From contig NZ_JALNMI010000001.1 in the NCBI RefSeq assembly GCF_023156585.1, forward strand, positions 434,001 to 498,000: DNA of 64,000 bases. Reading direction: 5' to 3'. The position numbers were made by a program, and so were the translations under genes. The notes beneath the pieces are model-generated. The model ran no database searches. It saw only the letters and a program-made list of their open reading frames with translations, and had not been told where the DNA came from. Positions 27,941-58,537 of the stretch are shown here, piece after piece. Positions within the stretch are counted from its first letter, which is position 1. Every line of letters starts with the position of its first letter. The stretch comes from Subsaxibacter sp. CAU 1640. GTDB lineage: Bacteria > Bacteroidota > Bacteroidia > Flavobacteriales > Flavobacteriaceae.

Positions 27941-27946
27941 TTGGAT

Positions 27947-29080
27947 ATGATCAACAAACGCCTACTTATAAAAAACCTACTTGCTCACAATGATGAAAAC
28001 AGTTTTTATGACAAAAAGCGTAAAATCGACATCAGTGAAAAAGAAGGCAAGGCGAAATTCCTGAAACATATTTGTGCGCTTTCCAATAGCAATCCAAAGA
28101 ACAATTCTTTTATTGTCATAGGAGTTGATGATGAAGACAACAAAATTGTTGGTGTCGACTTTTTTGACGACAGCAAGATTCAAAACCTCATCAATGCTTA
28201 TTTGACCAATCCTCCTATTGTTTCTTACGAGAACATTCCTTTTCCTCACCTTCCTGATGACAAGGTTGTTGGATTGGTAACCATTCGACCGATGGGTAAA
28301 TTGACAGCCTTGCGGAAAAACATCTGGAAATACTATGGCGGCTCTGTTTTTTTTAGGGATGGAAGTATGAGTATGCCTAAAATTTTTGATATTGAAATCA
28401 AGGATGTCAATTCAAAAATTGTAGAGTCCATTGAAAACCACGCACAGAACAATATAGAATATACTCTTGACGGTGTTTTCGATTTTATGAACAAGCGAAG
28501 AGATTATAACCCTCAATATAAAGTGTTTAAAGAATATTTTGTGCTGTGCTGGGCTGGACAAAAAAAGGTTGTTAAAGATGAAACCTTTTTCAGTCGTGTG
28601 GATATTGAATTGGTGAATGAACAGGTCAGATTGTTCTTTTCAACTTTAGATGAAGTTTCAATTACCTATGATGAAGATTCCTTTAAAATTGTTGAATATG
28701 TGAGTTTGGGGCTTCAAAACTCATATAAATATTATCCTCTGGAAGAAACCCTTATTCAATTTGGGAACAACGCTAACTATCACATTGACACAAAATTATT
28801 GTTTGAGGCGCCACAATTCGACAAAAAAGTGCTTCATCATATTTATAATTCAAATAACGCAATTCTTGATAAGTTGAAGAAAGGTATCACACTCACCAAA
28901 CACGAGGAGCAAGATTTATTGAATCTTCCAGCCACTTATTTGATTTGTTATTTGAATCTTTTCCACGAAGCCATTGATAAACTGAATGAAGCTAAACCAT
29001 TCTTGAAAGCCTACGGAAAAGACGTTTATGAAAACTATAAAGACTCCCTTCGCATCTTGCGGAAAGTAAAATACAGTTAA
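27947..29080 (+). CDS. AlbA_2 (Schlafen-type) domain protein
   Basis: The 377-residue product has an N-terminal AlbA_2-like nucleic-acid-associated domain (about 40-120), recognised by FLKHICALSNSN, SFIVIGVDDEDNKIVGVDFF and the later NIPFPHL to RPMGKL segment. The remaining 250 residues are helical and of no family I know. No signal peptide or membrane segment is present. A TTG two codons upstream (27941) is possible, but the ATG at 27947 is more likely. The gene is separated from the SDR gene by a palindrome and followed by the two hairpin elements. AlbA_2 domains occur in putative regulators and in defence genes; which applies here is not clear. Confidence 0.75.
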   Translation: MINKRLLIKNLLAHNDENSFYDKKRKIDISEKEGKAKFLKHICALSNSNPKNNSFIVIGVDDEDNKIVGVDFFDDSKIQNLINAYLTNPPIVSYENIPFPHLPDDKVVGLVTIRPMGKLTALRKNIWKYYGGSVFFRDGSMSMPKIFDIEIKDVNSKIVESIENHAQNNIEYTLDGVFDFMNKRRDYNPQYKVFKEYFVLCWAGQKKVVKDETFFSRVDIELVNEQVRLFFSTLDEVSITYDEDSFKIVEYVSLGLQNSYKYYPLEETLIQFGNNANYHIDTKLLFEAPQFDKKVLHHIYNSNNAILDKLKKGITLTKHEEQDLLNLPATYLICYLNLFHEAIDKLNEAKPFLKAYGKDVYENYKDSLRILRKVKYS

Positions 29081-29131
29081 ACCTTAACCCAAAGTTTTCA
29101 ATTTAGACACATTAGTCCGAGAAGAAATTCT

Positions 29132-29218
29132 GACTTTTGTACTGCTATTAATCAATTTCATAACACCTCATTTCTCCCGATAAAGTTTCGGCATTGAAAT
29201 GAGGTTTTTGCTTTATAC
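29132..29218 (+). ncRNA. Structured hairpin element, copy 1 (candidate small RNA)
   Basis: The element starts with GACTTTTG and the shared TGCTATTAATCAATT (29143-29157). A 9-bp stem CCTCATTTC (29166-29174) with GAAATGAGG (29196-29204) follows, containing an inner CCGA/TCGG stem, and a T tract. It ends like an intrinsic terminator on the plus strand. The second copy lies 180 bp downstream. Expression has not been shown. Confidence 0.55.
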
Positions 29219-29311
29219 ATCAATTTGTTAGCTCAAAAAGTGAAATCCTACCATTCATACAGTTTTTTTTACCAATCATAGTTTTTTTGTTTGAGGGTAG
29301 CATATTTTTTA

Positions 29312-29400
29312 GACTTTTACAGTGCTATTAATCAATTACAATTAAACCTTATTTCTCCCGATAAAAATTCGGCACTGAAATAGGGTTTTTGTTTTTTATA
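29312..29400 (+). ncRNA. Structured hairpin element, copy 2 (candidate small RNA)
   Basis: The second copy has the same order: GACTTTTA, TGCTATTAATCAATT (29323-29337), stem CCTTATTTC (29347-29355) with GAAATAGGG (29377-29385), inner CCGA (29358-29361) with TCGG (29369-29372), then a T tract. Compared with copy 1, one C-G pair has become T-A and one T-A pair has become a T-G wobble, so the stem is kept. It abuts the 3' end of the convergent 90-aa gene. Confidence 0.55.
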
Positions 29401-29407
29401 CAAATGC

Positions 29408-29668
29408 TTAAAGCATCAACATAATCAAAATGATTGCTGGAGCAAATCCTAAAAGCGCTTTAGAAAACCTCCATTTGATGTTACTTTTTGAAATGAAAAA
29501 AATTGCAAAGGGTAGCAACAAAAAAAGTGCAGTGTAAATGAACAGCGCCACCCAATCTGATAAGCGCATCAAATAATCAAAAGTTCGAATGCCTTCATCT
29601 AAATAAGCAATACAATTTGTAAGCAAGAAGCTTATTAAAACTATGTATCCAGTGTATTTCCATTCCAT
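29408..29668 (-). CDS. Small integral membrane protein, 86 aa
   Basis: The protein has three hydrophobic segments (TGYIVLISFLLTNCIAYL, VALFIYTALFLLLPFAIFFI, FAPAIILIMLML) separated by charged loops, so it should lie in the inner membrane. No family is recognised. A longer reading from 29680 would start inside the terminator stem, so I take the ATG at 29668 (MEWKYTGY). The gene lies in the gap between ALDH and the hairpin elements, and starts immediately after the U tract of the ALDH terminator. Confidence 0.6.
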   Translation of the reverse strand: MEWKYTGYIVLISFLLTNCIAYLDEGIRTFDYLMRLSDWVALFIYTALFLLLPFAIFFISKSNIKWRFSKALLGFAPAIILIMLML

Positions 29669-29702
29669 AAAAAAAGCCATTTCAATTTGAAACGGCTTTT
29701 TT
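29669..29702. terminator. Terminator downstream of the ALDH gene
   Basis: GCCATTTCA (29676-29684) and TGAAACGGC (29688-29696) form a stem with one A-C mismatch, with an A run on the left (29669-29675) and a T run on the right. On the minus strand it follows the ALDH stop codon at 29719. Confidence 0.8.
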
Positions 29703-29718
29703 CAATTTTTATTCTTGA

Positions 29719-31272
29719 CTACAAATCAAACTTAATCCCTTGCGCCAATGGCAAATCTGTTGTGTAATTGATAGTATTGGTTTGGCGTCTCATATACACT
29801 TTCCAAGCATCAGAACCAGACTCTCGTCCACCACCAGTTTCTTTTTCACCACCAAAAGCACCTCCAATTTCAGCACCAGATGTTCCAATATTCACATTGG
29901 CAATACCACAATCAGAACCAGCGTGCGACAAAAAGCGTTCAGCCTCACGAAGATTATTCGTCATTATGGCTGATGACAGTCCTTGAGCAACACCGTTTTG
30001 AATGTCGATGGCATTTTCAACATCCCCTGAATATTTCAAAAGATATAAAACAGGTGCAAACGTCTCGTGCTGTACAATTTTATAATTTGGCTTCGCTTCA
30101 GCAATAGCAGGTTTTACATAGCAACCGCTCTCGTAACCATCACCAGACAAAACACCTCCTTCTACAATCACGTTTCCTCCTTCTTCAACCACTTTTTCAA
30201 GCGCTTCGTTGTACATTCTTACAGCATCTTTATCAATCAATGGCCCAACGTGATTTTTTTCATCCAAAGGGTTCCCAATTTTCAATTGTTTATAAGCGTC
30301 CACAATAGCATCCTTCACTTTGTCATACATACTTTCGTGGATAATCAAACGCCTAGTGGAAGTGCAACGTTGCCCAGCCGTTCCAACAGCACCAAACACG
30401 GCACCAATCACAGTCATTTTTACATCAGCATCAGGCGTAACGATAATCGCATTGTTACCTCCAAGTTCCAAGAGTGATTTTCCTAAACGTCCAGCCACTT
30501 CCTGTGCCACAATTTTACCCATACGAGTAGAACCCGTTGCAGATACCAGAGGAATTCGGGCATCTCTGGTCATAAATGCGCCTACTTTATAATCACCATT
30601 GATTAAGCAAGAAATGCCTTCTGGGAGATTATTTGCCTTGAAAACTTCTGCAGCAATATTTTGGCAAGCAATTCCACACAATGGTGTTTTTTCACTAGGT
30701 TTCCAAACGCATACATCACCGCAAATCCACGCCAAAGCCGTGTTCCAAGACCAAACAGCCACAGGGAAATTAAATGCCGAAATAATCCCAACAACACCAA
30801 GCGGATGGTATTGCTCATACATTCTGTGCCCTGGACGCTCGGAATGCATTGTCAAACCGTGAAGTTGACGCGACAATCCAACGGCAAAATCACAGATATC
30901 GATCATTTCCTGAACTTCGCCCAAACCTTCTTGATAGGATTTGCCCATTTCATAAGAAACGAGTTTGCCCAAAGCTTCTTTTTTAGCTCTCAATTTCTCT
31001 CCGAATTGCCTCACGATTTCACCTCGTTGTGGCGCTGGCATTACTCTCCAAGTCTTAAACGCTTCGGTGGCGGCATTCATTACTTTTTCATAATCATCTT
31101 TGGTGGTTGATTTCACCTTTGCTATCAATTGTCCATCCACTGGTGAATAGCTTTCCAAAATGTCTCCATTCGAAAAACTGTTCGAACCGGTTGAAGTACC
31201 TTCATTTATATCGTTAATCCCTAATTCCTTTAAGGCTTTCTCGATTCCGAAATCTGTAGCAACTGCTTGCAT
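29719..31272 (-). CDS. Aldehyde dehydrogenase, ALDH7 (aminoadipate-semialdehyde dehydrogenase) type
   Basis: The 517-residue enzyme oxidises an aldehyde with NAD(P). The catalytic Cys lies in GTAGQRCTSTRRL, the general base Glu in LLELGGNNA, and the cofactor Asn in ISAFNFPVAVW. The WRVMPAPQRGEIVRQFGEKL segment and the long C-terminal GSDAWKVYMRRQTNTINYT are typical of the ALDH7/AmaB group, which acts on alpha-aminoadipate semialdehyde in lysine breakdown; I cannot fix the substrate. The frame is open to 31320, but MQAVATDFGIEKALKELG at 31272 matches the family N-terminus. No other lysine-degradation gene is nearby. Confidence 0.9.
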   Translation of the reverse strand: MQAVATDFGIEKALKELGINDINEGTSTGSNSFSNGDILESYSPVDGQLIAKVKSTTKDDYEKVMNAATEAFKTWRVMPAPQRGEIVRQFGEKLRAKKEALGKLVSYEMGKSYQEGLGEVQEMIDICDFAVGLSRQLHGLTMHSERPGHRMYEQYHPLGVVGIISAFNFPVAVWSWNTALAWICGDVCVWKPSEKTPLCGIACQNIAAEVFKANNLPEGISCLINGDYKVGAFMTRDARIPLVSATGSTRMGKIVAQEVAGRLGKSLLELGGNNAIIVTPDADVKMTVIGAVFGAVGTAGQRCTSTRRLIIHESMYDKVKDAIVDAYKQLKIGNPLDEKNHVGPLIDKDAVRMYNEALEKVVEEGGNVIVEGGVLSGDGYESGCYVKPAIAEAKPNYKIVQHETFAPVLYLLKYSGDVENAIDIQNGVAQGLSSAIMTNNLREAERFLSHAGSDCGIANVNIGTSGAEIGGAFGGEKETGGGRESGSDAWKVYMRRQTNTINYTTDLPLAQGIKFDL

Positions 31273-31472
31273 ATTTGAGTTATTTTTAATTTTTAGTATT
31301 AATTTCTGCGAAGATAACAATAAAATACTGCTTACTAAATATTGGGCATCCTAAAAAGGCTTAACTTTAATGCAACATTCAAATTCTAATTGAAGTGCTA
31401 CGAATACTAGAATTCCAGTCCAAAATCAATCAGCCTATTGTAATTTTATAGTCGTTACAACATTCTAAATTT

Positions 31473-57580: not shown

Positions 57581-58537
57581 TCAAATTTCTTTATAATTTT
57601 CTATTTGAGCATAGACGGGAAAATGGTCGCTAAATCCACCTTTATACTTCTTGCCAACATAAGTACGGTATGGTTGCCCTTTATACTTTCCATCATATTG
57701 TGTCAAAAATTTTTCATCAAAAATATCAGACTTAATAACTTTGAATGGCCCTTCGCCTTCCTTTAAAAAATTTGGTGTCAAAAAAATTTGGTCAAACATA
57801 ATCCATGCAAAATTATGGTTCACGCTTCCTCTACTATACGACCATACTTTTTCTAAAGCATTTATCAAACCTGTCTCTCTTTTGAGACTCAAAACACTGT
57901 TGCTATTTGGGTTATCATTAAAATCGCCCAAAACTATTATTTGTGCATCATAATCTCCATTTTTTAAAAAGTTGACGACTTCTATCAATTGTGTTGCTGC
58001 AATGACACGCTTAAAATCCGTTTCATCTCTACCTTCGTGCCTTGATGGCCAATGATTAACCAAAATATGAAGTTTTTTCCCGCCAAGATAACCGGTTACC
58101 AATAGAATATCGCGTGTATAATCTCTTTTACCAGATTCCTCTTCTATATAAATTGGATAAACTCTTGAGTCCTCAACAGAAAATACATCTTTATTATAAA
58201 GCAATGCTACATCAACACCTCTTTCATCTGGTGAATCAAAATGCACAAAATCATAGTTGAAGTTTTTCAAATGCTCACTGTTTATCAAGTCTTGCAAAAC
58301 CGAATCATTCTCAACCTCTGCCAAACCAATTAAAGCAGGCGGTTTCCCAACTGATTCAAAACCAATTTTGGAAATAACTGAACCAACTTTATAAATTTTA
58401 GTGTCATAGCGTTTTTTGGTCCAGTTTTTAGCTGAAACAGGAAGAAAATCGTTATCATTTGTTCTTTCATCAAGAAATACATCAAAAAGATTTTCGACAT
58501 TGTAAAATGCAATAGTATGTATGTTGTTGTTAGAAAT
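57581..58537 (-). CDS. EEP family nuclease/phosphatase with non-canonical or lost start codon
   Basis: The EEP domain is complete: HTIAFYNVENLFDVFLDE at the N-terminus, LIGLAEVENDSVL, FVHFDSPDERGVDVALLYNK, ILVNHWPSRHEGRDE, VLGDFNDNPNSN and GGFSDHFPVYAQIE at the C-terminus. Unlike the paralogue at 43092-44153 it has no signal peptide, so it is probably cytoplasmic. The frame is open from 58549, but no ATG, GTG or TTG occurs before the TTG at 58324, which would delete about 71 conserved residues. I chose the ATT at 58537 as start because it gives ISNNNIHTIAFYN, where a Met is expected. Start confidence is low; the domain call is high. Confidence 0.8.
   Translation of the reverse strand: MSNNNIHTIAFYNVENLFDVFLDERTNDNDFLPVSAKNWTKKRYDTKIYKVGSVISKIGFESVGKPPALIGLAEVENDSVLQDLINSEHLKNFNYDFVHFDSPDERGVDVALLYNKDVFSVEDSRVYPIYIEEESGKRDYTRDILLVTGYLGGKKLHILVNHWPSRHEGRDETDFKRVIAATQLIEVVNFLKNGDYDAQIIVLGDFNDNPNSNSVLSLKRETGLINALEKVWSYSRGSVNHNFAWIMFDQIFLTPNFLKEGEGPFKVIKSDIFDEKFLTQYDGKYKGQPYRTYVGKKYKGGFSDHFPVYAQIENYKEI

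Follow-up and report, generated by a model that had tools for sequence, protein, structure and literature searches.

Tandem predicted small RNA genes with a shared 5′ box, one of them linked to a LytTR-type operator, in Subsaxibacter sp. CAU 1640

Reading the locus from left to right, we see a gene for an SLFN_AlbA_2/DUF5929 protein, a stretch of 327 nt (29081–29407) free of open reading frames, and then reading frames on the opposite strand. Counting ORFs of at least 90 aa, no other complete inter-ORF gap in the window (the whole 64,000-nucleotide stretch of DNA analysed here) is as long, the second-longest being 289 nt, at 58325; the earlier note had placed a tandem pair of structured elements in just such a long gene-free gap. 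The features are as follows:

27941–29080, + strand: conserved upstream neighbour, protein with SLFN_AlbA_2 and DUF5929 domains (Pfam); the end of this gene recurs beside homologous elements; context, outside the system
29132–29139, + strand: predicted −7 promoter element of copy 1, GACTTTTG against TAnnTTTG, ahead of the box by 3 nt, a spacing seen at many class-A sites
29144–29213, + strand: predicted copy 1 sRNA, ~70 nt; match to covariance model R1 (built from both copies among other sequences), E 3.9e-14
29144–29157, + strand: predicted RNA 5′ end and seed GCTATTAATCAATT of copy 1, near-invariant in the alignment; +1 at 29144 placed from the −7 spacing
29165–29209, + strand: copy 1 terminator hairpin and T tract, pairing 29165–29174/29196–29205 with inner stem 29177–29180/29188–29191 and internal loop UC/CAUU; fold z-score −5.5 against shuffled sequence; covariation
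29249–29280, + strand: LytTR-type direct repeat TACCATTCATACAGTTTTTTTTACCAATCATA, agreeing at every fixed position with the operator pattern from upstream of the LytTR gene; its presence tracks that of a LytTR orthologue
29312–29319, + strand: degenerate −7 element of copy 2, GACTTTTA, recognised by its letters
29324–29395, + strand: predicted copy 2 sRNA, ~72 nt; match to R1 (this copy, too, being part of the model), E 3.7e-14
29324–29337, + strand: predicted RNA 5′ end and seed GCTATTAATCAATT of copy 2, from genome-wide box searches and near-invariant columns
29346–29397, + strand: copy 2 terminator hairpin and T tract, pairing 29346–29355/29377–29386 with inner stem 29358–29361/29369–29372; fold z-score −5.1 against shuffled sequence; covariation
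29719–31320, − strand: conserved downstream neighbour, aldehyde dehydrogenase (Pfam), adjoining elements in both clades (e.g. loci L044 and L316); context

Beyond the pair lie a 90-aa membrane-protein-like ORF with no Pfam match (29408–29680, − strand; a similar protein adjoins the element at locus L042) and, between it and the aldehyde dehydrogenase gene, a strong inverted repeat flanked on either side by A/T tracts (29670–29702), a probable bidirectional terminator.

The two copies lie 180–181 nt apart, in agreement with the 180 bp first proposed, and are 80–86% identical in the two blocks. The details picked out by the earlier note are present: GACTTTT in both (at 29132 and 29312), an identical 15-nt TGCTATTAATCAATT (at 29143 and 29323), outer stems CCTCATTTC/GAAATGAGG in one copy and CCTTATTTC/GAAATAGGG in the other, and in each an inner CCGA/TCGG stem followed by a T tract; the outer stem does differ by a C-G to T-A exchange and by a T-A pair turned into a T-G wobble, as had been read. 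A pattern for the hairpin core finds exactly two matches in the window, both of them these copies, with 0.00 expected by chance. Both predicted RNAs are headed by an unpaired 5′ end, GCUAUUAAUCAAUU (13–14 letters), followed by the terminator hairpin; neither contains an ATG. Because each copy comes with a −7-like promoter element and a terminator of its own, we take them to be two separate sRNA genes, as had been suggested, their transcription being predicted; with promoter, terminator and no ORF, each has the make-up of a free-standing unit, as expected of a trans-acting sRNA.

Within the window the 5′ box would attract no attention (7 occurrences with up to three mismatches against 7.3 expected, of no significance), and its significance derives from genome-wide searches. 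Here, TGCTATTAATCAAT occurs seven times exactly and 21 times with at most one mismatch, the reversed-pattern control giving 0; the family shows strong enrichment (51/119 genomes, with one control match among those listed), and genomes from the order's other families are at background (~20 matches across about 245 genomes). The box often lies 3 nt past a TAnnTTTG-like element and recurs at other predicted RNA starts: allowing at most one mismatch in the −7 element, this spacing is found at 28/93 family sites versus 0/107 sites on viral contigs (p 4e-11), a negative control in which the same 14-mer matches by chance and almost none of the contexts are seen. In Flavobacterium psychrophilum the TAnnTTTG −7 element spans −12 to −5 (PMC9723704); the same position here puts +1 on the G of GCTATTAATC, such that the box would form the exact 5′ end of the RNA and the predicted transcripts begin GCUAUUAAUC. 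The degenerate GACTTTTA of copy 2 would suit an activator-dependent promoter.

Searching 299 genomes of the family at the DNA level brought up many homologues, from dozens of genera (among the named relatives are Mangrovimonas, Mesoflavibacter, Meridianimaribacter, Olleya, Mariniflexile and Yeosuana). Most of them are arranged alike: a promoter-like element, then the GCTATTAATCA box, a short linker that varies, the hairpin and a T tract. One Prevotella stretch, among the 12 with the hairpin core from a scan of named genomes, we treated as a chance match. The covariance-model search of Flavobacteriaceae proposed in the earlier note finds R1 in 89/249 family genomes (E ≤ 0.01); outside the family there is no convincing match, the two weak ones having E 0.005 and 0.008. 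When 31 sequences are aligned, RNAalifold predicts this hairpin again, and in 12 of its 13 pairs both partners change with pairing kept; there are 42 compensatory cells versus 9.3 in shuffles and 98.5% of cells paired versus 90.3%; shifting the partner by one column lowers pairing to ~55%. Selection on RNA structure, previously called plausible, is supported by covariation, and a lack of homologues or of compensatory changes, named beforehand as grounds against it, is not what we see. Conservation of sequence is concentrated in the box, whose seed columns are near-invariant next to a variable linker, and in the internal loop UC/CAUU; across genera the apical region and inner stem are also conserved. 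No Rfam 15 model exceeds its gathering threshold in the window or in related loci, matches over the element at E up to 10 are at chance level, and most sub-threshold matches are due to the inverted repeat at 29670–29702. Taken together, the data support membership of both copies in an undescribed Flavobacteriaceae sRNA family, kept in many marine members of that group.

Could the hairpins instead be mere terminators of the AlbA_2/DUF5929 gene, tandemly duplicated? Copy 1 does start 63 nt past the stop codon of that gene and both copies end in T tracts, but such a role does not account for the −7-like element of each copy, for the LytTR-type operator between them, or for a seed, internal loop and inner stem conserved across genera; moreover, homologues of a second clade (see below) often lack the T tract and have a second terminator, and we regard the idea as very improbable. 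A cis-acting leader, either riboswitch or attenuator, might well contain a conserved internal loop and hairpin, but here two complete units stand in tandem with no Rfam match, and the next genes (29408–29680 and 29719–31320) are both on the minus strand, so that there is no adjoining gene downstream to regulate; this explanation we reject on gene order, leaving it next to no weight.

The two copies differ in what lies upstream. Copy 2 is preceded by the direct repeat ACCATTCATA-n11-ACCAATCATA (ACCAnnnATA-n11-ACCAnnnATA), which starts ~73 nt before, and spans ~43–74 nt upstream of, the predicted RNA start; no such operator is found at copy 1 in the window. The 3.47 Mb genome has two credible sites only, the other being upstream of a gene whose product has Response_reg and LytTR domains (Pfam), so copy 2 has in common with the regulator's own promoter a paired direct repeat upstream of the promoter, as in a LytTR regulon. 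A third perfect match (C2:255527) was dismissed, its letters outside the fixed positions being unlike those of other sites; a one-mismatch match (C1:418324) looks in context like a coding stretch, and the rest, also with one mismatch, are equal in number to those that the reversed-pattern control gives.

The link between operator and regulator holds across genomes. Most of 30 LytTR orthologues have the operator upstream, and ~20 of the 30 also have a divergent RNA beside them, with the same box at its start and a varying but still paired terminator at its end. Where the genome has a LytTR orthologue, 34 of 39 element loci reach an operator score of 11–14 (of 14), the site in loci with a good one usually starting 73–81 nt ahead of either the box or the conserved part of the hairpin; where it has none, all 14 loci score 8–10 and a good site is found in 0/14 (Mann–Whitney p ~1e-6, an optimistic value because the genomes are related). 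Regulator and R1 element also co-occur by genome (odds ratio 6–7, p ~1e-9, similarly optimistic since relatedness is ignored), with exceptions in both directions: 28 genomes with the regulator and no detected R1 element, and 39 the reverse. We infer from this pattern that copy 2 is switched on by a specific LytTR two-component regulator. In Firmicutes, AgrA–RNAIII and VirR–VR-RNA are cases of a regulatory RNA driven by a LytTR-type response regulator through paired direct repeats, the arrangement proposed here; RNAIII and VR-RNA are longer than, and unrelated to, the present RNAs, and we know of no shared-seed family in either system.

The reverse complement of the box, ATTGATTAATAGC (the ‘anti-box’), occurs on the transcribed strand in two groups of sites. 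In the first it lies 0–45 nt past a stop codon and directly before a terminator, that is, in a 3′UTR; by inspection of the sequences, we take the hosts to be genes for OmpA-like, Dps, UspA, KatG, FtsZ and thioredoxin proteins, a TonB-dependent receptor and others. Terminator-like hairpins adjoin 24/93 family sites (five of these 24 being a TACGTA palindrome rather than a terminator), versus 2/107 viral-contig sites and 21/565 random positions. These 3′UTR boxes are mostly lineage-specific and in unrelated genes, although the OmpA-like one is common to a sister genome; targeting of 3′UTRs is unusual among bacterial sRNAs. In the second group the anti-box lies in the leader of what is presumably a DegT-type aminotransferase gene, and here it is present in 16/16 orthologues of one clade, collected by an unbiased search: 15 leaders have all 14 letters and one has 13 of 14 with a G-U-compatible change, the flanks varying. 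Conserved complementarity is therefore seen in the DegT leader and, as enrichment, at terminator-proximal sites. Three one-mismatch anti-boxes in this genome (L026, L027 and L035) differ at the last base only, opposite position −1 and hence outside the predicted RNA. For candidates in this genome, taken from boxes that have no more than one mismatch, the computed duplex energies are −14 to −20 kcal/mol, values not always beyond those of shuffled sequences. Exact complements in the untranslated ends of other genes make it probable that both RNAs act through base pairing.

The box is also found outside the hairpin family. One further conserved RNA begins with it, preceded by a TACGTAGTTCTACGTATTG palindrome and ending mostly in a GCTCT-type terminator (L015, L228, L243, L254, L276, L285), and appears from its sequence to be a separate regulon with the same seed. 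Another has an upstream TTAATTGC..TATCGAAAAA motif and a AAAAAGCGTCAG/CTGATGCTTTTT terminator (L021, L185, L191, L201, L204, L205, L236, L239, L260), and in several genomes lies close upstream of an ORF. In other loci (L020, L203, L231, L240, L250, L256, L261, L275) the box heads short-peptide mRNAs (MKKLLLSLAALAFAT.. type; 45 aa in L020), possibly dual-function RNAs or messages for secreted peptides; conserved boxes near L023/L262 and L030/L230/L242 fell into no class.

That small-peptide mRNAs begin with the box counts against a pairing role, and the box may in part belong to the promoter or to initiation. Taken further, it would be a DNA-level element, whether a regulator site or a preferred +1 to +14 sequence, with the hairpins serving as terminators of little trans function; its fixed distance from the −7 element and its presence on sRNAs and small mRNAs alike are in keeping with this. 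Left unexplained, however, are the exact complements in opposite orientation in 3′UTRs before terminators, the conserved DegT-leader anti-box, and the conservation of both internal loop and apical region in the hairpin, and we judge this account unlikely.

A second form of the element (‘clade 2’, L316–L334) keeps the hairpin core and LytTR-type operator and lacks the 5′ box, which again speaks against a role centred on the seed; in many of these loci the RNA appears to run on into a conserved 3′ AAGTTTGAGTTAGTT stretch and second terminator. On this evidence the regulator–hairpin unit may predate the seed, and the hairpin may have a role of its own. The RNAs might, for instance, work mainly by binding a protein at the conserved internal loop; abundant mRNAs with complementary boxes would then be sponges that titrate the RNAs instead of regulated targets. 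A hairpin core conserved more widely than the seed would fit, as would anti-box hosts that are varied, lineage-specific and in many cases housekeeping or stress genes; to our knowledge, no protein partner of the RNAs has been described, and the anti-box of the DegT leader, tied to one gene and kept in many genera, argues the other way. We think this rather unlikely.

We therefore favour, with a probability of about three in four, a pair of tandem ~70-nt trans-acting sRNAs that pair through their 5′ seed, copy 2 being LytTR-activated and copy 1 driven from its own promoter. Conserved structure, seed conservation, operator–regulator co-occurrence, promoter spacing and enriched complementary boxes were computed, and from these we infer that the RNAs are transcribed, that the LytTR protein binds, that seed and box pair, and in which direction regulation runs. 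Each RNA would present the unpaired seed 5′-GCUAUUAAUCAAUU first and its own terminator hairpin last. A LytTR-family response regulator would bind the direct repeat and activate copy 2, whilst copy 1, without an operator, would rely on its own promoter; the same regulator would act on its own operon and probably on the divergent RNA with the same seed. The seed would then pair with AUUGAUUAAUAGC boxes in other transcripts, located both in 3′UTRs directly ahead of terminators and in certain 5′ leaders, altering the stability or translation of the transcripts that bear them.

The closest known design appears to be FopS of Bacteroides, of the FopS/GibS family in Bacteroides thetaiotaomicron (PMC11697453), from the same phylum and a different bacterial family. 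Like FopS, the elements here are multicopy and combine a single-stranded 5′ seed with a terminator hairpin; the likeness is one of architecture, and cmscan against Rfam gave no match for the elements. FopS targets susC start regions (PMC11697453), whereas the complements found here are in 3′UTRs and the DegT-type leader; the LytTR-type operator is a further difference. Nearer in taxonomy are Rfp18 and the other Rfp RNAs of F. psychrophilum, conserved flavobacterial sRNAs known from transcriptomics; Rfp18 is predicted to pair via its third stem-loop and affects metalloprotease mRNAs (PMC9723704). The present RNAs are likewise conserved, predicted flavobacterial sRNAs, with a box nearly absent from a large sampled genus that is probably Flavobacterium, and we set Rfp18 apart from them by its description rather than by sequence. 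6S-flavo (RF01685) and Flavo-1 (RF01705), also structured RNAs of Bacteroidetes, have no cmscan match in the window or related loci.

In one respect the locus is ordinary, since it consists of predicted sRNA genes; what is uncommon is the dedicated LytTR link and the use of one 5′ seed under different promoters with exact complements in 3′UTRs, the cellular function being a predicted one. More tentatively, and at odds short of even, there may be a family-wide RNA ‘address code’, in which RNAs of several separate regulons (LytTR, a TACGTA-palindrome regulator and others) and small-peptide mRNAs begin with a common GCUAUUAAUCAAU tag, and unrelated transcripts have the exact complement of this tag directly ahead of their terminators; if true, different signals would feed into a single pairing code that operates mostly at the 3′ ends of mRNAs. 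The regulatory RNAs of Flavobacteriaceae are poorly known, and the locus offers a candidate circuit of LytTR two-component system, operator, seed-sharing sRNAs and named candidate targets, in which the regulator's credible operators in this genome are confined to its own locus and one sRNA pair. It would also provide a natural test of whether bacterial sRNAs use mRNA 3′UTRs as regular pairing sites.
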